The notes under the pieces: model-generated
Seen by the model: the letters and a program-made list of their open reading frames with translations, nothing else
Told to the model about the DNA's origin: nothing
Database searches by the model: none
Part shown: positions 19,105 through 37,718 of the stretch, in pieces
Position numbering within the stretch: position 1 is the first letter of the stretch
How the letters are laid out: each line of letters begins with the position of its first letter
Position numbers and translations under genes: made by a program
Assembly (NCBI GenBank): GCA_013368375.1
Contig: JAACJP010000056.1
Coordinates: 62,001 to 126,000 of the forward strand
From: Tricholomella constricta
Taxonomy: Eukaryota > Basidiomycota > Agaricomycetes > Agaricales > Lyophyllaceae
Reading direction: 5' to 3'
Length of the DNA: 64,000 bases

Positions 19105-19145
19105 GATAAGCCCGACCGCATTCGGCAACAAGTTCCCAGCGTTAT
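19105..19145. repeat. 41-bp direct repeat flanking the Ngaro-like element, left copy
   Basis: Begins GATAAGCCCGACCG and ends CCAGCGTTAT. It is identical to 37678-37718 and in the same orientation. The internal B1-A2 junction lacks it: there GATAAG is joined by only GCCA to GCGCTCTCG. Confidence 0.85.
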
Positions 19146-19330
19146 GCGCTCTCGTAATTGGTAGTAATGAAGGAATAGATAAAATAGAGTAAGTAAGCGG
19201 TCAGGGGGGGTTCTACGAGTCAACGTCGGCGCGAAAGTCTGCCGCGACGGTTGCTGTGGGGAAACCTCCCCGGTACAAATGGTAGTGCGTCCTGTATTGC
19301 GTCTAGGTAAGCGAGTGAGGCAACAACCCA
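19146..19330 (-). repeat. Ngaro split direct repeat B2
   Basis: 185 bp, matching 31891-32075 (B1) with one difference near the end (GTGAGGCAAC here, GTGAGACAAC in B1). It is the 3'-terminal repeat of the element on the minus strand. Confidence 0.9.
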
Positions 19331-19389
19331 AAACAACAACATACCAACTGTGGGAGAGTAGAAGAATAGTCAAAGGGAGGGAAGGAGGG

Positions 19390-19480
19390 TGAGCAGAAAT
19401 TCTTCGAAGATGAGCGGATGCGAATGAGAAAGAATGTCTGAGATTGGTCGAATGCTCGAATGTATATTAGAAAGCAATAA
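19390..19480 (-). repeat. Ngaro repeat A2, distal 91 bp (cut off by KDZ insertion)
   Basis: Identical to 37503-37593 of A1. It ends at GCAATAA, the target duplication of the KDZ element. The rest of A2 lies 12.3 kb away at 31797-31886; 91 + 90 bp equals the 181 bp of A1. Confidence 0.9.
19474..19480. repeat. 7-bp target site duplication, left
   Basis: GCAATAA, repeated at 31790-31796. The uninterrupted A1 copy reads AAAGCAATAATCG, so exactly these seven bases are doubled. The bases beyond on each side differ from A1 and belong to the insert. Confidence 0.85.
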
Positions 19481-19499
19481 CACCTGATGCTGGCACCCT

Positions 19500-19597
19500 T
19501 TTGCAAAATATACTGTAGTTACAGTCGACGTGCTTTGCAAAACTGCCTGATAGCTATAGGTCTGCAGTTTGCAAAGTGCAGTCCTGTACTTTGCAAA
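19500..19597. repeat. subterminal TTTGCAAA array, left end of KDZ element
   Basis: Four copies of the palindrome TTTGCAAA start at 19500, 19534, 19568 and 19590 (spacing 34, 34, 22), with ACAGTC-type words between them. They are probable binding sites for the transposase or its zinc-binding N-terminus; that role is inferred. Confidence 0.8.
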
Positions 19598-19827
19598 CTC
19601 GTCTGTAACTGAATGATGCCACGCTTGTCCTTCCCGCCATGCTTGTCTTTCCCGCCACTGTGCTCGCTGCGAACTACACTCCTCGAGCCCGCCCGCCCGC
19701 CCCCGCCCCCCCCTGGCCTCCTTGGCTCCCCGCCTTTGCGCACTGACCATTCTCGATATGGATACCAATGTTTATATTTAAATTCAATTCTTTTTCTGAT
19801 TTTTACGTTGCGAATAAAAAATGTCTA

Positions 19828-22800
19828 TTATTCGCCATCGTCGTGTCCGTTGAGCTCGGGGGGGATTACATCTTCTACATCTAGGCCTAACGCTACGTAT
19901 TCGGGTACAAACCGCCAGATATGCTGACAATGGCCCCTCATCCTGCGGTACTGTGATGCTTGACGAGCGGCGTATGCTCTGAGGGCCTCAACCGATGCAC
20001 TATCCTTCGACACGAAACACATCGCTGCCGGCCGCCGATCCCATTTGACAGCCATCGACTCGAAAAACTGGAGCACGCGACGCATCTCCTCGAGCAAAAG
20101 CTGGACTTCCTCCGACCAACGATCAGCCCTTGCCTTGCTCTTGCAGAACTCGATACGTAGTGCTTAAAACAACCAATTACTTCAGGATAGAGACAATAAA
20201 AGATGAAATGAGATAACGAACCGTCCTTCATGCCTTGATTGTTGGCCAGTTGAGAACCATCCCCCAATCGTGACCAGATCCAGGAAACGCTGCGATGCCC
20301 CTCTGACTGACTACCATCCCCCGAGAGCTGTGAGATGTCAGCCTCTGCAAGCACGGGAAAAGAGACCTCCCAGCTGGACGTGCCGGAAAGTATCCCTGCG
20401 AGATGTCCCAGAGCCACCCGCGCCACTCGATACTTCAACGAAGCCGCCTTGATCTTGACCTTGACACGATCGATGATGTTTCGAGACCGGGTGTTATGGT
20501 GCTGCCCGCGCTGGAAACGGTCCTTGTCAATGTAAAGATAGGCTTGAAGGCGTAGCCCTTCTCGCAGTTCATCGAGTGCATCGTTGGCCTGCGATTTGCG
20601 AAGCCTCCACTCCATCTCCTGTAGACGCACATCGCAAGGGAGTTGGCGCTTCAAAGACGAGGGCAGCATTAGTGGAATTTTCTCCGGCATCTCGTCCTGA
20701 TCACTGGTATTTTTGGAGCGGTGTAAGGAGAGCGCCGGCATGTAGAGGTGCTGGATCTCAATCCAAGCATCAATTTTGCGGCGGAGAACATTTCGTCGAA
20801 CCTGGATTCGGGTGTTCTGGTAGTCAGTCGAGTGGCTTGTTAATTCACCCGCATCAATACCAAGACGACGCCTGGAGAATGATAAGTCAAGGTGATCTCT
20901 GCCCAAGTCTTAAAGAGACACGTACTGATGCTCCTCGAGGTCAAGCCCCATTGTCATAAACTGGCTTGCCGACACAGTCTCGTGAAGGATGTAAGCATTT
21001 CCGTGGGCCAGATCTTTGGCATCCTGAACAGCTAGCTCGCGTCGCACGGCATCCAGAGTGAGAGCTAACGAACAATGCTTCAGAAGAGGACATAACAGAA
21101 GCCGTGTGCGGTACTCACATTTGAAGCGTGATTCAAAAGGGTTTGGCTTACTGTGGTCCTGGAGCCATTCCTCCAATTCAATCTTCCATGCCCTGACTTC
21201 ACCTTCGCCAGCCTCGTCTAATCCCTGCTCCAATTGATGGTAGCGAAAGACTTGTTCGCTTCGCTCGGCGACAGCATTTTGGATCTTCCGTAGCAATGAA
21301 ACGCCTGACGCATTTGTTAGTTGTTACAATGTTTAGGTAGCAATGCATGCGTACCCATGAGTGTGGTCTTCTTCCAGTTCCAGTCACCGAAATGATCGTC
21401 GAGGGTGTCTTGACGAGAACCAGGGCCCATTTCACGCGTACTTGTGGCAACCGGGTTGATATGCGACCAGCCACGTTCAGGGGCCTCACCGTCTGTTCGT
21501 CCAACGCCCCAATTGTAGTTGAAGGAGAAGACCGTTTGGCAGGCCATGATGTGAGCAGGAAGATGAAATTTTGGAACGAGGAAAACTATATGCTGCCGCC
21601 CCTCCGCATCTAGGTGAAGGCGTCTTGGGTATTTCTCCATGCGCTTCCAGATATGTATGCTCCACTGGCAAGCAATATCGTATGATACAACTAGCTCGAT
21701 AGACTCGGAGGGTGACTCGGAGGGTGAGAGGTGGGAAAGGCTAGAAAAGAACAGATAATCCATGTTCACATACCTATTGAATGGCGTCAGCATCATCAAC
21801 GAAGAAAACAGCTCAAAGAATGCACGTACCGCTCTGATCGCTGAAGATCACCCACTGATTGGGGCCGCTTCACATCATGACGAGCGCAGTCAATCGTACC
21901 AACGCCAGTTGCAGCGAGGCCTTTTGCTGAGCGTTCAGCGTCGACAGCTTTATGATTGGAGCAAGTAGAGGGCTGGAATATTGGTATCAGTGATCAGAGT
22001 TGAGAGGGTACGTGAAACAACTCACGTCTTGAATCACGAGCGTACCGAATGTGTTGAGAAAGTTGATAAATTCGTCCCTCTTGACAAAGTACGACATGCC
22101 GTCACCCAAGGCAGGATCAACGATGCTGTTGGATACGTGCTTCCTCTTAAGGCGAAAGTTGGCATCGATTCCAAGGAACAAGCGGTAAATCCACCTAGGA
22201 AGGGTGTTATAAAAAATGATACTACAACGGCAAAATCACGCACCGCTTCTCTGGTGGCTCGTTCTGCCATCCTGAAGGGAGATTGAGACCAGGCTGAGGA
22301 CACGCTGGGCAGAGAACTGCCAGCTCTCCAGCGGCTGTCCCCGCCGCACCAGCAGGATCGTGGCCTCGCCCCGAACGTTTCAGCATCTTGATATGCCGGT
22401 ACTCCCGAACCATGCGCATGAACGCTGAATAGCGATCCTATACGAGAACGTTAACAATTAGACTGCTGGTAGAAACGGTCAAACAGACCTTGATTTTCGG
22501 AATGCCGGTATTGTCCGAAAGTCGAGTGAGCGCATGGTAGAACTCGAAGCACGATGCCTTCGACTCGAAGGTCAACAGATGAAAGTGCTTCAAAACTGCA
22601 AAGGTGGCAGCAGACTTGGGCTGGGAGACAGTTGCCGGATACCAACGATGACGAAGAAGCTGGACAAAGGAGAGCTGGGCAGTCTCACAGTTGCAGAAGT
22701 CAACAGCTACTTCATGTACCCCATTGACGTGCACGACAACAAAATCATCGCCGTAGGCAACCTTTGGATTGGAGCAGCCCTCACCCACCCGGTGGCCCAG

Positions 22801-23538
22801 TTGAATGCGAAGTCCGAGGTCCTTGAGGGTGATCTTTTCGAAGAAAGTTTTGTTCCACGCCTTGTGAATTTAATTTTAGGCCTGAGGAAGGATGAAACGA
22901 ATTCACGATACACACCTTGACCCTGTGAAGGCTGTTTTGCCGGTGTCCAGCGACGGTGCAGCCCGAGCATAGAAGCTGACCTCCCTCGCAGTCCTCGCAT
23001 CTGATTTTCGCCTCATGTAGCCCACACATGGGGCATAGCTCTTCAGTGTATTCGCCCCTACCGTCCCAGCGCATGTCCTCGGCAACAAAGCTATCTCGAT
23101 CGGGAATCCAGCATTTCAATGGGTTATCCTGGCCATATACATAAGTGGATGCAAGCCAAAGGTGAGGGTGATGAATGCGCTTACCGTTGCACGTCGCGGG
23201 CGTGGTGCGACCATAGTCGCGTCCAAGTGCTCAGCGTAGGCAGGATCGAGCCAAGGAGCACTGTCAGTGACGTCCACGGAATGATGAGCTGCTGGCGTGT
23301 CCTCCCAGGCATGTGGTTCGAAGCTGGGACTCGATGACCGCACACGTTTACCAGGGGAGGCGTGGATGGAGGAGTAGTGGGTTGACCAACCCAGGTTTCC
23401 ACTGGGCAGGGCATGATACCGCGTAAGGGGTACCTGGATAGGTTGAGGGGGTGGAGTGAGGCGTGAGGGATCATCATCCTGGCATGAATGTATGCGGATT
23501 TGGAGGTTAGCTTTCTTGTTGCGTTTGGCGTTCGACAT
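19828..23538 (-). CDS. KDZ (Kyakuja-Dileera-Zisupton) transposase with CxC2 zinc domain
   Basis: Transposase of the element. ATG at 23538 gives a basic start (MSNAKRNKKANLQIRIHSC). After a Pro-rich linker and one intron comes a cysteine cluster (CPMCGLHEAKIRCEDCEGG, then LLCSGCTVAGHRQNSLHRV), the CxC2-type zinc domain of this family. The catalytic core follows: first Asp in FLGIDANFRLKRKH, second Asp in VVSYDIACQWSIHIW, Glu in RTDGEAPERGWSHINP. The C-terminal part is helical and rich in Arg, Gln and Glu. It ends in an acidic tail (LDVEDVIPPELNGHDDGE) at 19828. About eight short introns join cleanly, for example PPEKR to WIYRLFLGIDAN across 22240-22190. No internal stop was found, so it is probably active. 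It lies about 190 bp downstream of the TET/JBP gene, same strand. Confidence 0.9.
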
Positions 23539-23729
23539 GGAGGGGGGGGGGGGGGCTTGGCGTTACAAGTTGGCGTCAGACTAAAAAACCTCAGTACGCA
23601 TGGACCATGGTGGCTCCCAGGGTTGAAGACAGCCTGCAATTAATATGATCAGACAAATTGCTACGCGCCGCACAACAGATTCTGGTGGAATCAATGGAAT
23701 TGCCAAGGAACAGGAGATATTGAGCATGA

Positions 23730-25516
23730 TTAAAAGACAGGCGCCGATCGGCAAAAAGCTGCGCGTCGATCAGCATCTAACTCGGAAACTTTTGAAAAAA
23801 GGTTGAGGGCCTCCTTTGTTCTCCCCTCGTCATCCCCTTCCAGCTTCCTCTTCAAGTCTTTACCACCCTTCCTTGCCTCAAGAGAATCTGAGGTCTGAAA
23901 CCCGTATTTGACCCAGCGGAAAAGTCCTCCCGCACAATACTGGCTGATGGAAATGCGTCGCTCGCCTCCCTGAATCGGACAGTTGCCATGGCGCAGGATG
24001 CTTGAAGGAAGCATGATCGTTGCCCCTGGCGGAAACTCAATCACAAGTCCCAGGTCGAAAAGGATGAGGTGGCCTCCTTTGGTAGGATCATAATTTCCCC
24101 CAGAGGTCAGGAGACACATCCCATACGCGACATTTGCGGGATCCGTGTGGTCGAGCGTAACGGTTTCGGGTCCGAAGTTGATGGTGATGGCGGGGAATAT
24201 GCTGTGAGGAAAGTTGATTTGGAGTTGCGGGTCGTGCACGTACAGCGCCTCTAGATTGGACGCATAATCCCTGTAAATTTTCGGCGCGTAGTAGGCAAAC
24301 GCGCCTGAGCAGTAGGTGAATGAATTATTGGAAGGGTAGGGAGAAGCTAGAATTTACGCACTAGATTGGAACCCAGCGATACGCTGAACGCTTGGATCAC
24401 CCAATACCTCGTCGAGAAGCGCCCGCACCTTGGTGCTGTGGACCAGATTGCCTGGCCGCTGTAGGAGAACATTGATCAGGAAGCTGTATAATACAAAATA
24501 AACAGAATCCCCTACCGTCTGACCACCGCCATGAGACACGCCGGATGCTAATGCAAAGAATCTACCCCGGCGATGGCTCAGTTGATCGCTTTTGAATAGC
24601 TTTTTTTCTTCACCACGTAAGCGCGCCTGGGTTATGGCCTCTTCGGCAGCCGATGCCACCTGTGGCCATGAATCATCATTCGGGTGGCCGACCAGAAAGA
24701 CGATGCCCCGGTCGTCCTTGTCGACGATTGCATGCGGGTCACTACATACGCCCTGTCAATTTAAGCACATAGGAGGAGACCAAGTAATACGCACCGACCG
24801 TTCCAAGGGAATACCCTAAAACCCGCCGCTTTGCACTCAGCAAGTGTCCAAGGGGTAGCCCGAGAAGGCCGAAGACGTTTGCCAACCCAGCGTCCAGAAG
24901 CCGCTGGAAGTTGCGCAGCGTTCAGATCAGCAGGGATCACGGAGGGACCTGCGCTTCGTAGCGCAGGCGTATGGCGTAGGCGGTAGTTGACGGCGGGAAC
25001 CCTGGCATTTGCACCCAGTTTGCGATGGGCTGCCCGTCGCGCCTTTGAGCGAGCCTTGTTTCGAGATGCCTCAGAAACACCTTGTTGATATGCCGGGGGC
25101 TCGGACCTGGCAGCTTTGGATGGGGGCGTTAGGTCTTCCGGAGGTGTGGACGCGACGGCTTTGGATGTAGGGGACACAGAAATGCCCTGTTGATACGCCG
25201 GGGGCTCGGACCTGGCGGCTTTGGATGGGGACGTTAGGTCTTCCGGAGGTGTGGACACGACGGGTTTGGATGTAGGGGGCTCGGACGCGGGCTCAGACGC
25301 GGCAGCGTTGGAGGATGGGGGTGTTGGATCCTCCGGGGGTGCGGACGCAACCGCTTGGGATGGTGAACGCTGAGGGGAACCTGATGGGCCCGAACGAGGC
25401 AGTGGACGGATAGGACGCGGTACCAAGGTCTGCGATGAAGAGAGCTCGACGCCATCATTGTGGCTCTCACCATCAAAAAACCGCCCGTCCTCCGCGTCAA
25501 TAGCGCGCTGGAGCAT
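23730..25516 (-). CDS. TET/JBP-family Fe(II)/2-oxoglutarate dioxygenase (5-methylcytosine oxidase)
   Basis: By family, it oxidises methylated cytosine (or thymine) in DNA. The stop is at 23730. The N-terminal 170 residues are a Pro/Ser-rich linker with a tandem repeat (positions 25080-25330). Spliced segments then read FPWNGRDPHAIVDKDDRG, SWPQVASAAEEAITQARLRG, RFFALASGVSHGGGQTRPG and GFQSSAFAYYAPKIYRDYAS. The double-stranded beta-helix has the iron ligands HxD in TLDHTDPANVAYG and the distal His in SILRHGNC; GGERRISI holds the Arg that binds 2-oxoglutarate. All key residues are present. The ATG at 25516 is a minimum start: the frame stays open upstream (SPFSPTLHEISTGISILP), so at least one more 5' exon probably exists near 25.6-25.9 kb. 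Confidence 0.88.
25080..25330 (-). repeat. in-frame tandem repeat in TET/JBP N-terminal linker
   Basis: A unit of about 120 bp encoding SKAVASTPPEDLTPPSKAAR followed by SEPPAYQQG occurs twice almost unchanged, with a third diverged part (SKPVVSTPPEDLTSPSKAAR). The third bases vary little, so the duplication looks recent. Disordered linker. Confidence 0.7.
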
Positions 25517-26040
25517 GGGAAGGATGCTGATACCGGTGCTGATCTCGTGAAGTGTTGGAGAAAAGGGGGAGAATGTGGCACCCGAGCGTGTCTATGCCAC
25601 CAGTAAGTACCCTTCATGACCTTCTGAAGCAAAGCGGAACTCCCCTTTCGTTCCATTAGCGCGTAACGGTTGTCCTGGTGCGAGGCTTGAAGAACTAGGA
25701 AATTGGTTAGCGTTGGGTTCGGAGAGACGTCCAAAAATAAAACAAGAAACACTACAATCAACCGCCGTGTGCCCATGGGTGAGGCTCTCCGTGCAGCTCA
25801 TGAAGTGGAAGAAGGGAGATTGAAGTAAGCAGTTGAATAGATAGGCGTACCTTGAATATTTGAATGCTCGAGTATTGCAGTCGAATGTGGGCGTGTAATC
25901 GAACGTGGAGGAGGAGGTCAACGTTAATATAATACATTGACAATGAATGCAAAGTGATCAACAGAATTTGATCACGTGTCCAAATCACGATCAAGTGATC
26001 TGATCAACATCTAGCCGACAGTTATCAGCATTGAGATTGG

Positions 26041-26081
26041 GTCGCGAACATATTGTAATGGTCGCGAACACGGTCGCGAAC
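26041..26081 (+). repeat. GTCGCGAAC array, left (3 copies)
   Basis: Copies start at 26041, 26061 and 26073 (spacing 20 and 12). The array lies in the roughly 400-780 bp region between the divergent TET/JBP gene and the basic-region gene at 26298. TGATCA/GATCAC words cluster just to its left (25950-26010). Confidence 0.8.
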
Positions 26082-26297
26082 ATTTTGAAAACCGCACTTT
26101 CAAGAGCCTGGAGGAACCTATGGTGTCTGATACATTTGGTACGCATTTTCATAGTTATTACGCTCAGATTTATATGGGTGCTGAGGCACAAGATTTGCCC
26201 AATAGTAATGGAATGTAAATCGTCTTTCTGCAGCCCATCAATCGTCCATATATATAGCTAATACACTGGCAATAACATGTTGTCTTTGTACGAACGC

Positions 26298-27277
26298 ATG
26301 AGCTCAGACAGTGAACCCGATATTCCTGATGGCACCAAGCACACGAGGTATTATCAAAGGTACGTTACAATATCTTGCTGTACGTTTGTCGAGACTTGAA
26401 GCTTGGGTACAGGAACCGCGACAAATGTCGAGATGCAGCCCGTCTAAGGATGGCAAAAATCCGCGCTCAACGGTTCATATTTTGTATCTTCTATTTGAAC
26501 TGCTACTGATGTCAATCCTGTTCAGGAAAGCAGTTACGCTTTCCAAAGAAACAAGGGCCGAGCGCGCACAGAAATCTAAGACGAGGTATGTGCACATTTG
26601 AATTGCTATCGGCCTAGCTCACAAGGAACTTCAAACGTAGAATTTCCTCCCCGACCCCGAGTGCGAGTGATAACGACTCGAACTCGGAAACGCGACCCCC
26701 CATGACACTCCGGCCACCAGAGAACACACTCCTTCTTCATCGTGATCTTATGGGGTTCGAGGATGAGTTCAATTCCAGTGATTACGACTTTCAGGCAGAC
26801 AACCACGCCAACGCCGCTACATCTAAAGCAAAAGCGACGTTTGCCGTCCCGGCTGCTCTGGCGGTATCCGACAATGACACCGATTCCACTCAAGATACAC
26901 ACTTCAATATTTTTAACCAGCTGCAATCTGACGTCGAAGCTTGGAGCGCCGCATTTGGTGGTTCATCAACGTGGATCTCCACGCTCGAGCAGTCGTACTC
27001 AGATGCTCTTTGGGCCAATACCGTGGAGGATTGGATTCGCAGCATCTGGGACCATGCAGCGGAGGGTCGGGAGCTTCTCGAACGTCTGAGAAGTATGGAG
27101 GGTAGGCTCCCAAGCGAGATGTGGAAGATCAGAGAGCTCTGGAGGCTCAAGGTGAACCTTGTCGAGACGGTTGTTCGAGGTGTTACCTGTCTCGAGCTCA
27201 GAACCAGTCTCATTGATGCGGGAGCCCTCAATCTTGTGGTAAACTCAGATACCGTAGGAGCGTGGTCAGATCTTTGA
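26298..27277 (+). CDS. basic-region protein, KDZ cargo (putative DNA-binding)
   Basis: Four exons: 26298-26359, 26413-26472, 26526-26585 and 26641-27277. The joined start is MSSDSEPDIPDGTKHTRYYQ, then RNRDKCRDAARLRMAKIRAQ and RKAVTLSKETRAERAQKSK. The central block is an Arg/Lys/Ala-rich amphipathic helix that looks like a bZIP-style basic region, but no leucine zipper follows at the expected spacing. The rest is acidic and disordered, then helical (FNQLQSDVEAWSAAFGG, VEDWIRSIWDHAAEGRELL) to the end. I recall similar basic-helix proteins as common in agaricomycete genomes, but this is from memory. A DNA-binding role is inferred. It ends 43 bp from the next gene, tail to tail. Confidence 0.75.
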
Positions 27278-27320
27278 ACGCTGTTATGATTGATGTACAA
27301 AAATTCGCTCGACATACTGC

Positions 27321-28320
27321 TCAGATGGATGTATCATAAGGAGATAAAACGGCGCGAGTAGACACTGAGGTGACTTTTACTACGAGCCCCGCCACTAATG
27401 CCTTCTCGTACGCGTCGAGTGCGTCTTGCTCCGTGGTGTACCGTTCAGGATTCGCGCCCGATATGCCACTGACGTTATTCATGATGCCGGCGCTGATGAA
27501 CCATGAGCATGAGTTCGAGACGTGCAGAGGCAATAGAGTACTCACGATCCACGGAAAACACCTGGCTCGCGCCCAACCTTGACAACGTACCAATAGTCTT
27601 CTTTTGCCATCATGTTCTCTAACACCATTAATGCATCAGTTGGTCTTGTCTTCAAATTGGGCAGGGGAGCGGAGTAAGAACTTACCAGAAGACAGGAGGC
27701 GGGGAGTGGCGATATCTTGTTGCGGCGACGTGCTTCCATATTGTGCCAAGGGCAACGCGGGCATCCCTGTGGCACCCATAAGCTCATATCGAAAAGCGCC
27801 ACATAATTGAATCTACGTACCTAGCGATGCGTCGTCAAGGTCGCCTCGAGCGGCCAAGTCGGCGGCCGTTTCTGCGAGGAAAGCCTTGTAACGCTCTGGT
27901 CCGAGAGCTCTTGCGATGATGCCTAAGGAAAGTCAGTAAAAGTCAGTTTCGCATAGACAAAAAAAGATAGGTAGAAAACGTACGAGGAGAAATAGGCAAT
28001 ACACGTCGAAGCGCTGAGTTGATATACCGGTCAGCGGACAGATGTGAGATAGAGATGGAGAGGGACGTACCAGCTTGAGCTTCTTCGATGGCGGTATGGG
28101 CTGCTTCAAGGGAGATTGCGGCGGATTGAAGGCCTTCAGAGTGATCGCAGAGACGCTGCCCTCTAACACCGTGAGCGCTCGTGCAATTGGGCTGGGGTGG
28201 CGGAGACATTGAGGGCATCGGTGAAGGAGAACGGGCCTCGGGTGGCGAAGATGTTGGGGGCGTTGGTGAAGGAGAACTGGGCTGAGAACTGGGCTGGGAT
28301 GGCGGAGATGATTGAGGCAT
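27321..28320 (-). CDS. protein with RNase H1 N-terminal (viroplasmin-like) domain, KDZ cargo
   Basis: Exons from the 3' end: 27492-27321, 27618-27546, 27766-27686, then further exons up to at least 28320. The last two exons join into YWYVVKVGREPGVFRGSAGI and MNNVSGISGANPERYTTEQD. This fits the fold of the RNase H1 hybrid-binding domain and caulimovirus viroplasmin (YxVxxGRxPGVY ... V.GF.GA.y..F.T..EA). That domain binds RNA:DNA hybrids or dsRNA in known proteins. No RNase H catalytic domain follows; the protein stops about 30 residues later. The N-terminal half is Pro/Ser-rich (MPQSSPPSQPSSQPSSPSPT), then helical (GLQSAAISLEAAHTAIEEAQ). The start is uncertain: a possible upstream exon lies at 28484-28397, but its phase did not fit. 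Confidence 0.7.
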
Positions 28321-28794
28321 CGGTGAAGGAGAACTACGACGAATGCAGATATGTATTTGTATAGATATTCAAAGTCAGCCGAAGTGAGTTACGAGAGCGT
28401 ACCTGGAGGACTAGGCCCGATTCTGCTAGATGGATCGGGCACATGTTGTGGCGCGTGCAATATGTTCTGGTCCTGCATAGGAATGAAAGCAAAGGACAAT
28501 CTTGACGGTCAGCGGGCATTGTACCGACTCAATACAGTATCGAGGAGTTGTCGGCGACGTGGCGACGTGTAACCGAATCTTATACCCCGTATTCTCGCAA
28601 ACGTACGCAGTTGAGCTGGCCTGGTCGTCTTGGGTTGGCATGACACGCATAAAGAGAGACTTGATGCCAGCCGAGTTGTCATTAACTTGGAATATCGGAG
28701 ATCTGGCTTGGGTTCATGACTATAGGACCAAAAAATAAAATGATACCGTTCGAACGGCTCCTACATAATCGAAACCCTTGACTCCAACTCCTCG

Positions 28795-31102
28795 ATGGCT
28801 TCGCAGTGGACGGACGAGCAGCAAACCTGGCTGAAATCCAAGCTCCCTGACTTTCTCGAAGCTCAGAAGAATAATACGACAAAGCGCTTTAATCAACTCA
28901 CCGAAGAAGAATGGTTCCAAACATGGCCAGAGAAAACAACTCGAAAGGGCGAATCGTTCTCCGTTGACGAGGGAAAAGAAGTAAGTCCAAGGAAATACAT
29001 GCAGAATATTACTTACGTTCACCACACAGAAACTCCGGCGTTGGTTTTTGTGGAACTCGAAGTCGGCGAAGCGTGGCAGATCGAAGAACTCTGCCATCTT
29101 CATGAAGCCTCGAAAGGCATCTCGCGCTCCCCAGTTAGTTCACGTATACCAAAAGCTATACAAGACCAAGACCCAGGAGGCCATCCGAGTCGCCATTGCT
29201 GCAGCAGGGGGTAAAAGCATTGATGCGGCTCGTCGTATTCAGATCATCAAAGAAATCCCGTTGAAGATGCTGGCTGAGGAGGGAGAGGAGGTTGTTGAAG
29301 CGGTCAAGGCAGAGAGAGATGCAGTTGTGAAGGCAAAGGAGGAGCAGGCGGAAGCCCTTGAGAACGCAAGCACCAGCTCGGAGCGAACTCCGCAAGATTA
29401 TCACGAGTACGTCAGTCGAGTTTGTATGGCTCTGTTGATTGACCAACTTGACTTTGTTGATCAGCGCCATTCAAGAGTTACCGACTGCTTTGAATGACCT
29501 ACTGCAAGCCGCGTCGGAAGCAACTGGCTGGGTCTTTCATTTGCTAGCTGCGGGTCCAAGTCCCATCTCAAACGGTGAAATCGCGAGCATCGAGTGCGTG
29601 TTTTCTTGTGATTTTCCTATTACTGACCCATCAACTTTTGTTGCACCTCGTAGGCAGTACTTCGGGCCTACGTCTACTGCCGGAAACACCTTCTCAGGGG
29701 CCCATCCAAGCTACAGAGATCATGTCGAGAAGCCATTCCTCAATCACGTCAAGGGAATTTTTCGTATGTGATGTTGTTATATTTCCAATGCCTTTCTAAT
29801 TGTATTTTCGCAGCACACGATGTCCGTGTCTCAAGGGCCTTAAGAGCCGCCTCATCACTGCCCTCTATTGACCTCCATGGTCTCACCCCCATGGGTTCGC
29901 CTTCAAGTCCAAAGCACGCCGTCCCACTGCCGCCATCAAACGCTAGCCAAACGGATGCGTCGATTACCGGTCACAATGAGTTTGATCTTGACGAATTTAT
30001 GTTGAACTGGGAGGTGCAGTACAATGAGCTTTCGGATATCTCCAGCCTCCTTTCGAGCACGACACCGTTACCGTATGGTCCGCTGCCCCCGGCGACAGCA
30101 GGTACCTCGCCCTCCTCGGACAGCCCTTCATTTACGCCGCCACCCTTTGCTCTACCAGCCTCCACTCCTGTAGCAGACTCAAGTGGCCCGCTTGCTCTGC
30201 CAGTCCCGAATATGGGTGTATTCATACCGCCGGCCCCCAATCTTCCCACTCAATTGGCTGCAAACGGACTCGAAATCACACCATATGCACCACCAGCCCC
30301 GACTCTGAGCCCGCTTCCCCCGCCAGACACGCGTGGAATCGTGCAGCCTGCCTTAAACATGCCAAGCCAGCCAGCCTCGATCACGACTACATCCGTACTG
30401 CCTTCCTTGAACACCCAACACCCCTCCCTCTCGAACACGTCGAACACGGGTACATGTGTTCCACTAGCCCCAAATATGGTCCCACATGGACCTACCCAGC
30501 CAATGTCCCCATTCATGACCATACTCCCGAACACCACCACTCACCTGAACACCGCTCACCCCACTCACCTGAACACCGCCATGCACCCAAACACCGCTCC
30601 CCCGACCACCACTCACCCGAACACCGTTCACCCGAACACCGCCATTCACCCGAACACGACCAACCTGAACACGACCAACTTGAACACGCCACCTCAGGAC
30701 TACACGGTTGCAGGGCCTGCAGCGACGACTCAGCTCGTCGACGAAGATGAGCCTCTCAGTACATCGGAGGAAGTTTTTACAAAGCGCCAGGCAGCAGCGC
30801 AGAAGCGTGCGGGGACCATGGCGCTTAAAAAGGCCATTGCTGAAGAGAAGAAGAAAGCTCTGGCTGCAAAGAAGAAGGGAACGGCGGCGGCTATAAGGAA
30901 GGCCTCAACTAAGGCCGTCACGAAATCAGCACCTCACGCGGTGCCCAAGAATGTTTCAGAGCGCCCCCGCCGCGCTGTGAAACCTCCACCGCGGGCTGAC
31001 CGGAGCCCTTCCCCTCCTGCCAAAAAGTATGCATTTTCTTCCCGTTTGCATGTGAGCGCCGCTGACTGTCATGCGCAATCCAGGCAGAAAAAGTCATCTT
31101 GA
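28795..31102 (+). CDS. WT..Q..WL / WF.TWPE family protein, KDZ cargo
   Basis: ATG at 28795. The joined N-terminus reads MASQWTDEQQTWLKSKLPDF, then LEAQKNNTTKRFNQLTEEEW and FQTWPEKTTRKGESF. As I recall, agaricomycete genomes hold many proteins with this W-rich start; its function is not known to me. Exon 2 begins at 29031 (KLRRWFLWNSKSAKRG) and continues with a charged helical region containing EEVVEAVKAERDAVVKAKEE. Later exons give EQYFGPTSTAGNTFSGAHPS. A long Pro/Thr-rich region with a HPNT minisatellite follows, then a Lys/Ala-rich basic tail (RAGTMALKKAIAEEKKKALA). After a last intron the protein ends at TGA 31100-31102. No enzymatic motif is visible. The basic tail suggests nucleic-acid binding (inferred). 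Confidence 0.75.
30525..30690 (+). repeat. HPNT/HLNT minisatellite inside the WPE-family gene
   Basis: Degenerate in-frame repeats of about 12-24 bp around CACCCGAACACC encode about ten copies of H-(P/L)-N-T with short Thr/Ala spacers. Low-complexity linker prone to slippage. Confidence 0.75.
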
Positions 31103-31186
31103 GAGTACTGAAATTAAATTGTTGATTTACGAATTAGCGTAGTGTCCTGTATCTAGAGTATACTGATAATGCGCTTGAGTAACAAG

Positions 31187-31248
31187 GTCGCGAACGTCGC
31201 GAACCGTAAACCGTAGTCGCGAACCTAGTCGCGAACTTAGTCGCGAAC
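31187..31248 (+). repeat. GTCGCGAAC array, right (5 copies)
   Basis: Copies start at 31187, 31196, 31216, 31228 and 31240. The middle spacings of 20 and 12 equal those of the left array at 26041-26081, in the same orientation. The array lies 85 bp after the WPE-family stop codon. Confidence 0.8.
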
Positions 31249-31666
31249 AAATATTAAAAACTTCACGAATGACTTGATCATGAACGTCTTGAGTGTTCTG
31301 GATTCACAAATGTCTTCAGCGTTTTCAGCGGAGAGGGGAAAATCGTATTGCATGGCATGTTCGCATATATACCTGGCGTGACTTCACAAAATTAAACAAA
31401 GTCAGGCCGAGTTGGCCGAGGCACTTCACGTGAGTCGAAACTAACTTAAAAAAACAACTAAGTCCCAAATTGAAGACCCGAGGGCGCACATCAAGGGCGT
31501 CTGTCTTGGCATCGTGAAGCACAGCGACAACATGGTGCAGGAAGCTGCCAGCAACAGCGATCAGAATGGTGGCCGCTTCTGGCAGGCACGAACAGAACCC
31601 AAGCCCAGGCCAGCGCCCAAAATGGACCCAAAATGGACCGGCAATCTGATGCCGAGCAGTACCCGG
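31249..31666. other. non-coding right arm of the KDZ element
   Basis: About 420 bp between the GTCGCGAAC array and the right TTTGCAAA array. Open frames exist on both strands but show no motif or splice support. No gene called. Confidence 0.4.
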
Positions 31667-31770
31667 TTTGCAAAGCTCAGTCGACTGGACTTTGCAAAGT
31701 TCAGTCGACTGGAGCATACAGTCATTTTTGCAAAGCTATTTTACTGTGTGTTACAGTCTGTTTTTGCAAA
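31667..31770. repeat. subterminal TTTGCAAA array, right end of KDZ element
   Basis: Palindromes start at 31667, 31691, 31727 and 31763. Counted from the end inwards, the spacing is 36, 36, 24, mirroring 34, 34, 22 on the left. The outermost copy ends 19 bp before the terminus, as on the left. CAGTCGACTG occurs twice between copies. Confidence 0.82.
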
Positions 31771-31789
31771 GTTATTACAGTGTTGCCTG

Positions 31790-31796
31790 GCAATAA
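31790..31796. repeat. 7-bp target site duplication, right
   Basis: GCAATAA, the second copy of 19474-19480, continuing into TCGAGAGAG exactly as in intact repeat A1. Confidence 0.85.
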
Positions 31797-31886
31797 TCGA
31801 GAGAGTGAAATTTCGTGACACGCGTTAGCCTTATCTAAGCTTAGGCCAGCCGTGCGCAGGCTTACGTGGCCTCAGCCGCCGATAAG
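31797..31886 (-). repeat. Ngaro repeat A2, proximal 90 bp
   Basis: Identical to 37594-37683 of A1. It is joined to B1 by the four bases 31887-31890. Confidence 0.9.
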
Positions 31887-31890
31887 GCCA

Positions 31891-32075
31891 GCGCTCTCGT
31901 AATTGGTAGTAATGAAGGAATAGATAAAATAGAGTAAGTAAGCGGTCAGGGGGGGTTCTACGAGTCAACGTCGGCGCGAAAGTCTGCCGCGACGGTTGCT
32001 GTGGGGAAACCTCCCCGGTACAAATGGTAGTGCGTCCTGTATTGCGTCTAGGTAAGCGAGTGAGACAACAACCCA
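31891..32075 (-). repeat. Ngaro split direct repeat B1
   Basis: 185 bp, 184 identical to B2 at 19146-19330. It lies about 100 bp downstream of the tyrosine recombinase stop codon. Confidence 0.9.
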
Positions 32076-32173
32076 CCTGGAGCATGGCTCGACGTCGTTG
32101 AACGAGCTTCCCCAAAAAGTCATGCGACGGGAGTAAAAAGATGTATTGATGTAAAAGGATGTATTGAGGTAAA

Positions 32174-33703
32174 TTAAAATAGACGAGGCAAATTAAAAGT
32201 GTCAGCGAACTCGGCGCGTCGAGCAGCCCAGGAGCGGGTGATGGCAGCGGGGACAATGAAATCGAGGTGGCGCCAATAAATAAGGAAACAAAGAGAAGAC
32301 CAACCACCGAGCTTCATAACGACTTGAGGTGGAACACCGGCTGCGAGGAGCTCCGCAGTACCGCCGATGCGGAAGCTGTGGCCGAAAATAGGCTGAAGAT
32401 GGTGGGCGTCGAAAATAGTAGACAAGGATCGAAGAAATTGGGACTTGAGGAGGATAGAGAAAGAAGGGGGAGAAGCATAAGCGAAAAGAGGAGTGGAGGG
32501 AGAGAGGCGGTTAATACGAAGGTGATTCTCAAGAGCAGTGACGGGACAAAAAATGTTATGCGTAGCGGTGAGGATGCAGTCAATCCCTTGTGGGGATGTT
32601 TTTGTCCACGGGATGTGGAAAGAAATGACTTTTGAGCCATTGACGAAGGAAGTGTGGAGGTCGCAGTCGCGAGATACGTGACGAGAAGGATCGAACGACA
32701 ATTTTGAAGGTAGAAGTTCGCCAAGGCGGCGACAGCCCCAGAAGGCGACGAGGGCGCAAGCCCAGATGGCGGCACCCGAGGGGGAGGTGAGGTCGAGATC
32801 GTGATGAAGGGCGAGGAGGTGGCGACTGGTGATTGGCTGGCGGGGAGGTCGCTTAAACCGAAGACCTTGTTTGTCGGCAGATTTCAGTAGGGAGTGGACC
32901 AATGGTTCGTGACCGTGCCATTCGGCATAGTTGAAGAGGTGCCAGAAACGGAGGCCATTGAGCCAGTTACGGATGCATTCTCCAGTGCAGGAGCCTAACG
33001 CGTCTGCGACAAAAGCTGAAATGAGAATATCGGAGGCGGGCATGCGAAGGTTTTCGGGAATATGAAGTCGATCACAATATTGAGTGAAACGGAGTAGGCC
33101 CGCGCCGTAAGAGACGCGCGTCGACTCGGCTAAGGAGTTGAAGAGACCGAGAAAGATTTTGGACTAGAAGAGAAGGGTGAGTGAGAAATAGAAGAGGATG
33201 AAGAAGCATACTTGAGCGTCGACAGGAATTTGAGCATCAAAGGAAGCGCGGGCGAGCTGAGAATGCGGCGTTGTCCAGAAAAGCAGACGTTGGCCCGCAG
33301 GAACGGCGGGACGGTAAGGACTAGGAGCGTAGGACGAACTGTCGGAGTTTGTGGCGTGCTGGGTCGACGAAGGCAACGAGGAGGCCGCGAGACGGCGAGG
33401 CGAAGCAGGGTGAATGAAGACACCCGGGGCCGCTGCGTAAGAGGTGGTTCTGCGGGGTGCAGCGACAGTCTCGAGAGACGGGAAAGAGGGAGCCGGGGAC
33501 CGCGGCTTTGGAGGCGACGTGTAGCGAAGAAAACGGGAGGATGGGGAGCTGGCGTAAACTCCGGGCGCGACAGTGGTGGAGGTAGTACGAGCAGATCGAG
33601 GAAAGTTTTCGACTGGCGGAATGCGTGGAGAGAGCGAAGTGGAGACTCTCAGACCGTCGTCGACGGCTCCAGAGGAAGCCGGAGAGGGACGAGGGTCAAG
33701 CAT
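32174..33703 (-). CDS. tyrosine recombinase, Ngaro-like ORF3
   Basis: Integrase of the retrotransposon; by family it inserts a circular DNA copy. ATG at 33703 overlaps the stop of ORF2. A Pro/Ser-rich N-terminal region is followed by an intron; the join gives DAQSKIFLGLFNSLAESTRV. The core-binding domain runs from there through SDILISAFVADALGS. Catalytic residues: first Arg in ALVAFWGCRRLGELLPSK, HxxR in IFGHSFRIGGTAELLAAGV, and the Tyr within CFLIYWRHLDF, next to the last Arg/His. Stop at 32174. All expected residues are present, so it is probably active. Confidence 0.85.
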
Positions 33704-36045
33704 GGAAAAAATGATGTAATTCGCGCGGTAGATCGAATGACCGCACGAGTAAAGTTTTAGGTGCACCCGATTCTCCACGCGAGATCGGGTCTGCAGGGTT
33801 ATCCTCGGATCGAACATAGGCGAAGGAAGGGGCGATGAGATGTTGGACGAGAACGGCATATGCCCGTCGCGTGCTCAAGTTAATAGGCACGTTGGGACTG
33901 CGATGTTTGTGATGCGCGCCGATGGCCCCGAAATTGTCAGAGTGGATAATGACGTGAGTGTTTGTATAATGCAACTGGACGAGGAACGAGAGGGCGAGTT
34001 CGATAGCGACTGCTTCAAGCCAGCAGATATCGTGCTGTGGTTGTTTCCAGTCGTCCACGAGCTTCAAAGCATACCAGAAATCACCGATAATGATACCTAA
34101 GCCCCATGAAGTGGAAGCGTCGACATAGATGCCGACATGCGCCAGATTACGGATGGGATGGAGTTGTCGGAAACCGGTAGGGCTCTGGAGTTTCGTCAAC
34201 CACCAGCGTAGAGCGGCGACCACGGAGTCACTGAGATGATGGGTGACGAATGTATTAGATTTGTATCCTGAAAAGAATGAGGAAGGAACGTGATCGGGAG
34301 AGAAAGGAGATCAGACCTGACATGAAGTTCGAGAACGCAGGAAGCCTCGAGGAGCCCTCGGGGTAGACAAACGTGACATGCACGAGGGTGCCATGAATGA
34401 TTTGTATGTCGCGCAGGTTAAAGGCCGCACGGTTCTTAAGGTGGGCGTCGAGCATGAGCGCCACGCGATTGAGATACTTCAAGCGCTTCTTTTCGGGCAA
34501 AGATACCCTGCGTAAGACGAGATCCCAGGAGAAACCAATATACGTGAAATTGGTGGAGAAGTGGGTGTCCGTTTTATCAGGATGCCACGGGATATTGAGA
34601 TCTGCGACGAGAGCCATGACCGAGTCACGGTCATGAGTGTAATGATAAGGTCCCTCGTGGAAAGGGCCAGTTGAGACTGGATAACGAAAAGCCTCAATGT
34701 CGTCCTCATATTTGAAGAATAGGCATGAAGGCCGCGTCTCCGCATGCCAAATGTCAATTGAAGCATTAGCTACCTGTCCCGAATTGCTACTAGCAGGACG
34801 GGCGCCAAAAGGATGAACATGATCGATGTAGAAATCTCCTTTAAAAGAGACAACGAGAAAAGGTTTGTGATCCGGGAGCGCAGGACAGGTACGGTGAAAC
34901 GATTTTATGTCGAAGGACATAGCCTGGGTGCCCGGGGGAGCACGGGCGACCTGAAGAAGAATAGAGTGAGATGAGAGATTAAGAATATGAGGACAGAGCA
35001 TAGACGATGAAGAGAGGAGGGAAGAAATTCTAAGACGCCACAGGGTACCGGCGTCGCATAATGAGATGAGACAGGAGTTATTCGGCGCCGACGGCGTCGT
35101 GTGAGGAGATTAGATAAGAGTTACCCAGCGCCGACGAAGATCGGCGTCGTGCGAAGAGATGAGATAAGAGTTATCCGGCGCCGACGAGAATCAGCGCCGC
35201 ATAATGAGTAGAGGGGCGGCCAAGATAAGACCGCGCCGCCCATGAGTAGAGTAGTACGACATCAGCGAGTGCTAACGCCGAGAGAGATGAGATAGGCGGC
35301 CTATAAAAGGTCGCTTGAGGGAGCACAGAGCTCCAAGAGATTATACGCGGTGTCCGAGAGTACGGCACCAGGTCAGAGATGAGATGTGCAGCGTCGCCCG
35401 ATGCTGGGAAGAGTTATCGAACAGATAAAGAGAGTGACGAGCAAGTGAATAAACCACAGTAAGTTTGGAACCACATACCTCGTCGGCTACACGGAAGGCC
35501 ATATCGAAACGAGTTGGGAAATCCTCCTTGGCTATGTGGCTGTTGACTGAGGGCGTTCCGGTAAGAGGATCGGCCTTAGAGAGGTTTCGACAGACACGAA
35601 GTTTAGGAGGGGAGTCCGGGCCGGTGTCTTGCTCTGCCACGATAAAAGGAGAACAATAGATCGGGCCACGCAAGATACGCTCGACCTCTGGCAGAGTGAA
35701 CGGACCGGACATGCGACCAAGGGCAATCTCTGTTGATAGGTAGTCCGCAACGGCTTCGGGATGGAGGTCGACCGAAGGGTGGTTCTTGATAATAATGGAT
35801 TTGGTGAGTTTGGGAAGTGTACCGAGGGGGAAGCCGCGAGTGAGATTAGTGATAAGGAGTGGATAGTTCGAATGTAAGTTATGCTTGGTCAACAAGCGAT
35901 CATACGCCGAGACATCGTAGGGAGTGACAATACGTTCGAATAGCTCGTCATCAGAAGGGAGCGAAGTGAGTGAGCGTGGACGATAAAAGATCGTGTCCGA
36001 AAAGTCTCGGTAGCAGAGAACTTCATCAGGCTTGGATGAACCCAT
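33696..36045 (-). CDS. reverse transcriptase - RNase H, Ngaro-like ORF2
   Basis: Copies element RNA into DNA. ATG at 36045 overlaps the gag frame by 20 bp in another register. Exon 1 (to 35479) carries the RT fingers (SGPFTLPEVERILRGPIYCS, LRVCRNLSKADPLTG). A 528-nt intron (35478-34951) joins RVADE to VARAPPGTQAMSFDIKSFHR, which holds the first catalytic Asp. The block HPFGARPASSNSGQ follows, then FFKYEDDIEAF with the YxDD box. A second intron of about 50 nt leads to the RNase H domain: VDASTSWGLGIII, CWLEAVAIELALS, HSDNFGAIGAHH and SEDNPADPISRG supply the D-E-D-D set. Stop at 33696-33698. Both domains look intact. Confidence 0.85.
35049..35200. repeat. GC-rich tandem repeat in the ORF2 intron
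   Basis: About three imperfect units of roughly 50 bp, each with GGCGTCG, then GAGATNAGATAAGAGTTA, then CGGCGCCGACG. The CGGCGCCG cores are palindromic and could form hairpins in RNA. Confidence 0.6.
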
Positions 36046-37498
36046 CAAAGGTCCGGTCACAAGCCGGGCTGCGCTCAAAAGCGGCATGCTGAGCTCCGCA
36101 GAGAGAGCAGACATGCAAGGCGTCGGGTCCGTGACGGTTGTCGCAGAACCGGTTGAGGTTGTAAAGACTGCAGATTCTCTTTTGGGTGCCGCCTTTGTGC
36201 GCCTTTGCGGGCCAGATAGCGTTATCTCGGAGACGTGAGAAGAGGGGTTTACCGTCTTCGAAAGTAGTGGTTGCCGACGGATGGTCGCGGTAGGAGTGCC
36301 CTCTGGCGCAGATAAGACACTGCGGGACTCGCGTCGAACCCGAACGAAAGGGCTGGCGAGAGCGACCGGCAGTGGGGAAGGTGTCGGAGCGAGACTGCCG
36401 AGAGAACTTGTTAGGATAAGCGGAGTCCGGTTCCGAGGCACGTTTGGGACGACGTTCGCGTTCGAGCTCTCCCAGTCGAACACGAAGCAGCACTTCCGAG
36501 GCGTAAGCATCCCAATCGAACAGTACACCTTTGAGGATGTCCCTTCGCGCTTTGAGCTCAAAGGGGTACCAGTCGGCGTACGTGACCTCGAAGTTGTCCA
36601 GCTGCAAGAAGAAGTCGCGATGCTTCTTGTATTCCGAAGCATAGGACGGAACCGAGGGCGCGACAGCCGAAGAAGGAGTCACTGATCCCATAGTAGCTGA
36701 GACGGAGGGTGAAGGATCGCACAAGAGCTCCAGGGCGGCCAGCAGGTTCCCAGTGGCCTCGACGAAACGGAAGGGACTAAGGCAAGTGCTGGCGTCGTCC
36801 GAGCCCCATAAGGAAATCATCTTGGGCATGTCCAAGAGCTGGACCTTTTCGGTGGTATCTTCATCAGCCCAGGGTCGCAGAAGCTTGAAGTGGATCTCCT
36901 GGGGAGCGTAGTTGACCGCATCAATGTGTTCGTTGGTGAAGAAATTTAACGGGGGACATAGCTTGTTCTTGATGCATAGCAAGTAGGTTGTCGGAATACT
37001 GATCCGGTCGCGCTGGGCAGGCACCCGCTTAACCGGATCAACCAACTGCATGCTGCCGAGCAACTTGGTGCGCGTTTTGGTGTCTCCCTCCCTGTCTTTC
37101 TCCCTTTCGGCCTGCCTGTCACGCTCAGCTGTCTTCTTCGAGATCGCTCGCTCGCTCTCGATGAACCGGAGAAGAGCGATCGGAAGGGGGGCGAGGCTGG
37201 CGCACAACGCCTCGCTATTTACTAACTCCTGGAATTCTTCATCCGAGAGAGAATAGAGACGGCGAAGGGGAGGACCGATGTCGAGGTCCACCGGACGAGG
37301 TGAAGGAGTCTCTTTAGCGTTAACCGTTCTGAAAACACTGTCATTGTTGTAAGCTTCAATCTCGACGTTGCGGGAGATGCGGATCGGGAGTGCTATCTCG
37401 GGCATGGTTAAAGCATCCGGGACAGCCATATGGGCGTCAAAATCAAAGTCATCAGGAATTGGGCCGGGTATACCGGCATTGGGCAGCTGAGCGGACAT
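36026..37498 (-). CDS. Gag-like protein, Ngaro-like ORF1, 490 aa
   Basis: Putative capsid/nucleocapsid protein. ATG at 37498 follows repeat A1 by four bases, so A1 probably holds the promoter and leader. The middle is helical with a charged stretch (SKKTAERDRQAEREKDREGD). The C-terminus has cysteine/histidine clusters: CLICARGHSYRDH, then ICSLYNLNRFCDNRHGPDA and LHVCSLCGAQHAAFERSPAC. These fit the zinc-knuckle arrangement of Gag proteins from tyrosine-recombinase retrotransposons. Stop at 36026-36028; ORF2 starts inside its last codons. No break seen. Confidence 0.82.
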   Translation of the reverse strand: MSAQLPNAGIPGPIPDDFDFDAHMAVPDALTMPEIALPIRISRNVEIEAYNNDSVFRTVNAKETPSPRPVDLDIGPPLRRLYSLSDEEFQELVNSEALCASLAPLPIALLRFIESERAISKKTAERDRQAEREKDREGDTKTRTKLLGSMQLVDPVKRVPAQRDRISIPTTYLLCIKNKLCPPLNFFTNEHIDAVNYAPQEIHFKLLRPWADEDTTEKVQLLDMPKMISLWGSDDASTCLSPFRFVEATGNLLAALELLCDPSPSVSATMGSVTPSSAVAPSVPSYASEYKKHRDFFLQLDNFEVTYADWYPFELKARRDILKGVLFDWDAYASEVLLRVRLGELERERRPKRASEPDSAYPNKFSRQSRSDTFPTAGRSRQPFRSGSTRVPQCLICARGHSYRDHPSATTTFEDGKPLFSRLRDNAIWPAKAHKGGTQKRICSLYNLNRFCDNRHGPDALHVCSLCGAQHAAFERSPACDRTFDGFIQA

Positions 37499-37502
37499 TT
37501 GT

Positions 37503-37683
37503 TGAGCAGAAATTCTTCGAAGATGAGCGGATGCGAATGAGAAAGAATGTCTGAGATTGGTCGAATGCTCGAATGTATATTAGAAAGCAATAATCGAGAG
37601 AGTGAAATTTCGTGACACGCGTTAGCCTTATCTAAGCTTAGGCCAGCCGTGCGCAGGCTTACGTGGCCTCAGCCGCCGATAAG
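37503..37683 (-). repeat. Ngaro repeat A1
   Basis: 181 bp, intact copy. It proves the insertion site of the KDZ element in A2, and stops four bases before the gag ATG. Confidence 0.9.
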
Positions 37684-37718
37684 CCCGACCGCATTCGGCA
37701 ACAAGTTCCCAGCGTTAT
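37678..37718. repeat. 41-bp direct repeat flanking the Ngaro-like element, right copy
   Basis: Identical to 19105-19145. Its first six bases (GATAAG) overlap the end of A1. The GMF1 start codon is 31 bp to the right. Confidence 0.85.

Follow-up and report, generated by a model that had tools for sequence, protein, structure and literature searches.

A five-gene TET-bearing KDZ transposon in Tricholomella constricta: repeated recent insertion, conserved partner genes and a predicted epigenetic function

Some transposons carry a demethylase, and for the question of why they do so few well-defined test objects exist. The question is raised by a 64-kb stretch (hereafter the window; bases 62001-126000 of contig 56) of the genome of the mushroom Tricholomella constricta, a member of the Lyophyllaceae in the Agaricales, in which an element encodes a KDZ transposase, a TET/JBP-like dioxygenase and three further proteins, here called g3, g4 and g5. 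We find that this element has inserted repeatedly and recently as one five-gene unit, and that g3, g4 and g5 are conserved constituents of the transposon and not passengers. As an overall account we favor, with a probability of about 0.62, a Kyakuja-type TET transposon whose repeated insertion as a five-gene unit is likely of the cut-and-paste kind and whose predicted dioxygenase would strip silencing methylation from the element's own DNA. The epigenetic function of the element is a prediction.

The T. constricta assembly (44 Mb, 118 contigs) was searched for further copies, which are named by contig, C56 being the copy in the window. Comparison of ends across copies fixed the borders of the element in the window exactly to the base (Table 1). 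The first 300 bases of the element have 17 matches in the genome and the last 330 bases have 25; nine of each are full ends, and the others are short matches to the palindrome boxes described below together with seven partial right ends. A 7-bp direct repeat lies at the ends of all nine insertions, and each repeat is different: GCAATAA in the window and AACATCC, GGGAGTG, AGGATGG, ATCAACA, AGTCCAT, GCGTTTC, ACGACGT and GAATGTT elsewhere. Six end pairs lie on a single contig in the expected order (C56, C29, C14, C59, C27 and C67). For C22/C8, C50 and C5, the common 7-mer is the sole basis of the pairing: the halves are inverted in C50 and 72 kb apart in C5, and the contigs C22 and C8 each end within the copy. 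Both of these contigs start inside one copy and have GCGTTTC at its outer ends, and they are probably neighbors in the genome; on C50 (49-99 kb) a copy is apparently split by an inversion with its breakpoint within the element, its ends carrying the common ACGACGT. Five right-end matches on C11 were considered as additional insertions and rejected, as all five have one identical flank; they are copies of a different repeat in which a fragment of a related element is embedded.

The nearest copy, C29, differs from that in the window by 6 substitutions over 12,308 aligned bases, and because this distance is so small the element moved recently. Leaving out the nested insertions of C59 and C27, the other contiguous copies lie at increasing distances: 12 substitutions over 12,202 bases for C14, 68 over 12,295 for C59, 827 over 12,177 for C27 and 1,495 over 11,997 for C67. 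Seven of the nine insertions (C56, C29, C14, C67, C59, C27 and C5) show all five genes; C22/C8 is without the middle part because both contigs stop there, and C50 yielded neither g4 nor the front of g5. The five frames are all open in C56, C29, C14 and C67. Other copies are decaying, with a stop in the TET gene and a frameshift in g3 of C59 and with frameshifts in the KDZ gene of C27, C22 and C50, the last being frameshifted in g3 as well. The C27 copy (C27:152751-170920) is a mosaic, nearer to the window copy over most of its left 8 kb, nearer to C67 at about 8-11 kb and window-like again in its last few hundred bases, which is likely the outcome of recombination between subfamilies. A preliminary description of the stretch had proposed a complete transposon with defined ends and a target duplication, and the exact borders, the GCAATAA on both sides and the identical end points of all nine insertions bear this out. 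It had further inferred from the borders that the five genes move together; the comparison of gene content between copies agrees, and the copies with five open frames at different sites confirm it. Its suggestion of a candidate "active mobile epigenetic module" holds as far as recent movement is concerned, whereas "active" and "epigenetic" are inferred qualities.

Table 1. Features of the transposon and its target in the 64-kb window
Feature	Position	Strand	Details
Transposon, complete	19481..31789	.	12,309 bp; termini CACCTGATG...GTTGCCTG; same ends at nine insertions in the genome
Target duplication GCAATAA, left copy	19474..19480	.	7 bp; basis: end comparison and empty site
Target duplication GCAATAA, right copy	31790..31796	.	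7 bp; basis: end comparison and empty site
Left end array, four TTTGCAAA palindromes	19500..19597	.	starts 19500, 19534, 19568, 19590
Right end array, four TTTGCAAA palindromes	31667..31770	.	starts 31667, 31691, 31727, 31763
KDZ transposase with CxC2 cysteine cluster	19828..23538	-	10 exons, 1075 aa; Pfam
TET/JBP-like dioxygenase	23730..25516	-	4 exons, 539 aa; Tet_JBP match and motifs
g3	26298..27277	+	272 aa in 4 exons; basic at the N-terminus, C-terminal half predicted to be helical; without a known family
g4	27321..28320	-	6 exons, 235 aa; RNase H1 N-terminal (Cauli_VI) domain, PF01693
g5	28795..31102	+	677 aa in 6 exons; conserved over the first ~280 residues, tail rich in proline; without a known family
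Unoccupied sister copy of target (empty site)	37503..37683	+	181/181 bases equal to joined flanks with one duplication

The models of the five genes were checked by hand from the sequence (GT-AG introns, no internal stops). Among their starts, that of g4 is the most doubtful; entries P0004-P0006 of the database start at the same motif. The transposase matches PF18758 (KDZ) over the whole profile length (E 2e-67) and CxC2 (E 4e-45), and the catalytic residues D, D and E, read as intact in the preliminary description, were found in the motifs IDANF, YDIACQ and DGEAPER. Two distant elements were also read whole, C42 (43112-55761) and C33 (243822-256433). They have 7-bp duplications of their own (AATGACG and CGGACCC) and the ends CACCTGATGCTG and TGCCTG, as in the window element; for the C42 and C33 families, about 4 kb of DNA on the transposase side is 66% identical.

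The dioxygenase likewise keeps the HxD, distal His and Arg that had been claimed for it, as DHTD, ILRHGN and GERRIS (the 2-oxoglutarate-binding Arg), and these motifs are kept in C56, C67 and C42. Several points nevertheless weigh against the favored account. Its Tet_JBP match has an E value of 3e-5 but reaches 23.6 bits where the curated cut-off is 34.9, and six other places in the genome exceed that cut-off. Kojima 2025 (PMC12730594) names Gly331 and Asp337 of CcTET as important, the AG type having Gly or Ser and then Asp there; by plain counting from HxD, unaligned to CcTET, the equivalents in the window protein are Asn and Cys. A search of C33 for the exact motifs YDIACQ and GERR[IV]S was negative, so this element may be decayed. 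The stronger Tet_JBP matches lie at C6:995473, C39:264029, C17:814288, C10:65237, C61:165953 and C95:9423, none near a listed KDZ place, and HxD is kept in the three of these six that were aligned. The first exon of the dioxygenase gene holds two 105-bp tandem repeats (25053-25262), C14 having one fewer.

The enzyme might have another job, acting on a different base such as N6-methyladenine (6mA), on RNA or on host DNA and leaving the element masked. We consider this rather unlikely. The weak profile score and the two differing residues speak for it, and PMC12730594 reports that CcTET is also active on 6mA and describes the functions of the transposon-borne enzymes as untested. The three kept motifs and the strong constraint on the gene (see below) speak against it, as does the decay of C59, which is CpG-biased, as expected if the element must deal with 5-methylcytosine. 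In that copy, C-to-T changes polarized with the other copies affect 26/1573 CpG positions vs 10/4810 of the remaining C/G positions (an odds ratio of 8.1, with p 2e-9; 13 unpolarizable substitutions left out), and C67, C27, C50 and C22 show the same tendency in unpolarized counts. The ratio of observed to expected CpG is 0.95 in the window copy vs 1.04 in the rest of the window, and the genome has five matches to cytosine-5 methylase domains on four contigs, all above cut-off. The decay of C59 is a likely footprint of methylation, and the CpG pattern points to past methylation and not to an effect of the dioxygenase; it was obtained with no control repeat, and CpG decay may be genome-wide, a further point against the favored account.

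Whether g3, g4 and g5 belong to the element was approached through their conservation, selection and associations. In C42 and C33 alike, the five genes follow one another and are oriented as in the window element, g3 having an identity of 42.5% and 36% there. On C10 the five genes are present but rearranged, and the left end was not found; genome search matches alone indicate all five genes at C5:974-1003 kb and TET, g3 and g5 on C41. The PF01693 match of g4 (E 7e-7) scores 29.8 bits against a cut-off of 21, its relatives scoring 28.8 bits in C42 and 20.2 bits, just under the cut-off, in C33. Protein database relatives of g4 number three, all from T. constricta. For g3 there is one, from Collybia nuda (44%), and for g5 two among the best 7,998 candidates, the T. 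constricta entry D9615_008461 and a protein of Collybia nuda (48%). No Pfam family matched g5, and g3 had no Pfam match over the cut-off and one below it (E 0.085). A structure model of g3 built from two sequences has four helices at a low mean pLDDT (predicted local distance difference test) of 53.5, and comparing it with PDB by Foldseek returned 143 hits up to E 10, of which none reached 0.001; the model of g5, with a mean pLDDT of 39.2, was not used. Sequence searches against solved structures with the TET protein, the TET pair, g4 and the g5 alignment returned nothing meaningful, the best match of the g5 alignment being a GCM-domain chain (E 0.19).

Comparison with the old copy C67 shows that all five genes are under purifying selection. 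The ratios of nonsynonymous to synonymous change (dN/dS) are 0.10 for KDZ, 0.22 for TET, 0.33 for g3, 0.40 for g4 and 0.32 for g5, and the corresponding one-sided p values for a deficit of amino-acid changes are 4e-35, 1e-15, 0.001, 0.002 and 6e-11, with a transition weight of 3.5 set by hand. Against C27, constraint is significant for four genes; that of g4 is not (p 0.13), which counts against the favored account. Associations were counted within 16 kb of 112 KDZ places copied by hand, the genome holding at least that many. A listed KDZ match lies within this distance of g3 at 12/13 loci, of g4 at 10/12 and of g5 at 18/25, many of these being copies of the window family; outside that family, as sorted by hand, a KDZ match stands beside 4/5 g3 loci and 12/16 g5 loci. 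A TET match lies within 10 kb of all 13 g3 loci, and a g3 match within 3 kb of 11/12 g4 loci. Eight g5 loci are at KDZ places with no nearby TET or g3 (C4, C6 twice, C15, C17, C19, C33:150 kb and C37). Counting on the same opposing side as the g4 result, 21/42 TET loci lack a listed KDZ match inside the 16-kb limit. Most TET loci are without g3, which evolves fast and may be missed elsewhere. We read the pattern as an association of g5 with the transposase and of g3 and g4 with this type of TET.

The preliminary description had called the three genes cargo, and it is very unlikely that they are passengers captured by chance, with only the transposase and the dioxygenase of consequence. The absence of a Pfam family for g3 and g5, their one foreign relative each, a constraint weaker than that on KDZ and the result for g4 against C27 would fit such a history. 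They are outweighed by the shared order and orientation in C42 and C33, by significant constraint on each of the three genes against C67 and by the eight g5 relatives at KDZ places without TET or g3. The cargo label is accordingly dropped for genes that are conserved, ordered and constrained. As to whether the extra genes occur as stable single-copy genes, none was found to do so, their relatives being mostly beside KDZ or TET.

The insertion site itself was examined by joining the window flanks with one duplication into a 171-base query and searching the whole genome. Among 41 matches, one is perfect (C56:99504-99674, window 37504-37674), and with longer flanks it extends to 181/181 bases (window 37503-37683). 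The transposon thus occupies one copy of a repeat whose sister copy, 5.8 kb away, is empty. Nine further matches span the junction at 77-88% identity (C28 twice, C5, C16 twice, C29 twice, C72 and C2), and the remaining ones are the two occupied halves and partial matches. Beside the C67 copy, a tandem neighbor of the target aligns to the joined flanks along 444 columns with 96% identity and differs once within the duplication. The idea that segmental duplication or faulty assembly, and not transposition, produced the extra copies is almost certainly wrong, since, despite the contig ends inside the C22/C8 copy and the inversion in C50, the 1.5-kb flanks of the six contiguous copies show no match to one another, each end pair has its own 7-bp duplication and the empty sites have a clean junction.

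The target repeat extends around the transposon at 19105-19480 and 31790-37718. It includes 185-bp copies at 19146-19330 and 31891-32075, which are 99.5% identical, the 181-bp target copy at 37503-37683 and, at 37678-37718, a 41-bp repetition of 19105-19145, a layout that we take to resemble the split direct repeats of tyrosine-recombinase retroelements. None of its three open reading frames matched a Pfam family. At C59:107292-111176 the joined 171-base flank is found in two pieces about 3.7 kb apart with an 8-base overlap, where the target repeat looks interrupted by the insertion of another element near the same point. Further to the left in the window, P-type ATPase exons form two opposite sets, 1533-3784 (+) and 9562-14369 (-).

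Each end of the transposon carries an array of four TTTGCAAA palindromes, whose starts lie 20, 54, 88 and 110 bases from the left terminus and 20, 56, 92 and 116 from the right. All eight occurrences of TTTGCAAA in the window fall in these two ends, where 100 shuffles gave a mean of 1.17 and a maximum of 4; as the motif was chosen after the repeats had been seen, the shuffle count alone is no clean test. Independent support comes from the spacing across copies and families: it is kept in eight of the nine insertions, C5 retaining three boxes per end, and in C42, C33 and the right end of C10 the positions are nearly the same, each with one box changed or missing. The exact motif does not occur in the interior of the six elements inspected (C56, C29, C14, C67, C42 and C33). 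CpG is absent from the boxes. Another motif that lies between them, ACTGN(5-9)CAGT, was rejected as not above chance, 15/100 shuffles reaching the 7 occurrences in the window.

Pairing of KDZ and TET in basidiomycetes had been stated as known, and rightly: Kojima 2025 (PMC12730594) describes TET+ Kyakuja elements of Agaricomycotina, which duplicate 7 bp of target, end in CA..TG and lack inverted repeats. The window element fits every tested structural feature of this group, to which it is assigned by structure. Like Kyakuja-1_LB and Kyakuja-2_LB of Laccaria bicolor, it combines a KDZ transposase with an internal TET/JBP gene (23730-25516), makes 7-bp duplications, ends in CA..TG and has no long terminal inverted repeats, the only inverted matches in it being short and built on the boxes. 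It differs in its three further conserved genes and its four-plus-four palindromes. The main text of PMC12730594, in the parts considered, names neither, and the words HMG, RNase H and subterminal are absent from that text; the published sequences may hold these features.

Two other published systems invite comparison. KDZ1 of Cryptococcus neoformans, according to passages of PMC12810828, likewise has a KDZ transposase, is about 11 kb long and has been shown to transpose, but it has 241-bp inverted repeats, 8-bp duplications and CxC1, whereas the window element has CxC2, 7-bp duplications and no long inverted repeats; those passages mention no TET gene. The large helpo1.3 copy of Pleurotus ostreatus (PMC4289320) is 10.7 kb long and has a PF01693 gene like g4, along with a gene whose product is predicted to have an RNase H-like fold, a third gene and adjacent inverted repeats. 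Its genes are described there as a Helitron capture; this copy might be a KDZ-related transposon.

Titles and the beginnings of abstracts yielded no paper on g3, g4 and g5 in KDZ elements or on the end boxes. According to Iyer et al. (2014, PNAS), who named KDZ, several KDZ elements reportedly encode additional proteins, including a divergent HMG (high-mobility-group) domain, and because of this, extra genes in KDZ elements are not new as such. The g5 protein differs in this respect: no HMG box was found in three segments of it at E up to 10, in a search whose HMMER filters drop weak matches. The kind of element is thus known, and the conserved five-gene set and the spaced end boxes are two structural additions that we did not find in print, nor did we find there the CpG-biased decay of a copy.

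How such a unit could work is suggested by the same associations. The KDZ transposase, perhaps aided by g5, would gather both ends through the four-plus-four TTTGCAAA boxes, cut at CA/TG and insert with a 7-bp stagger; a helper role of g5 is proposed because its relatives also adjoin KDZ genes without TET. The dioxygenase would act together with g3 and g4, proposed as its partners because they are seen in this genome almost only beside TET genes. Through its RNase H1 N-terminal domain, g4 would attach to RNA of the element or to RNA-DNA hybrids and direct the dioxygenase to transcribed copies. Against such hybrid binding, the domain match of g4 covers only 42 residues, and the contact residues of the human domain do not seem plainly kept in it. 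Escape of transposons from silencing through TET has been proposed in PMC12730594. Since the boxes hold no CpG, the dioxygenase would more likely guard gene transcription than access to the ends.

A more specific version, which we consider distinctly unlikely, is an RNA-guided demethylation kit, in which g4 together with g3 would recognize RNA-DNA hybrids on transcribed copies and recruit the TET protein of the element. If true, this would give the element, in mobile and self-contained form, an equivalent of the mammalian R-loop/GADD45A/TET1 route, linked to a transposase that recognizes palindrome arrays free of CpG.

For the favored account of a TET transposon that moves as one unit and may unmask itself, the element provides a test object with precise ends, an empty site and both recent, near-identical and old, decaying copies in one genome. 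It also offers a short list of co-conserved partner genes, and the pattern of association splits it into a predicted anti-silencing part (g3, g4 and TET) and a predicted movement part (g5 and the transposase). In a group that has been described without terminal inverted repeats, the box arrays are candidate binding sites.

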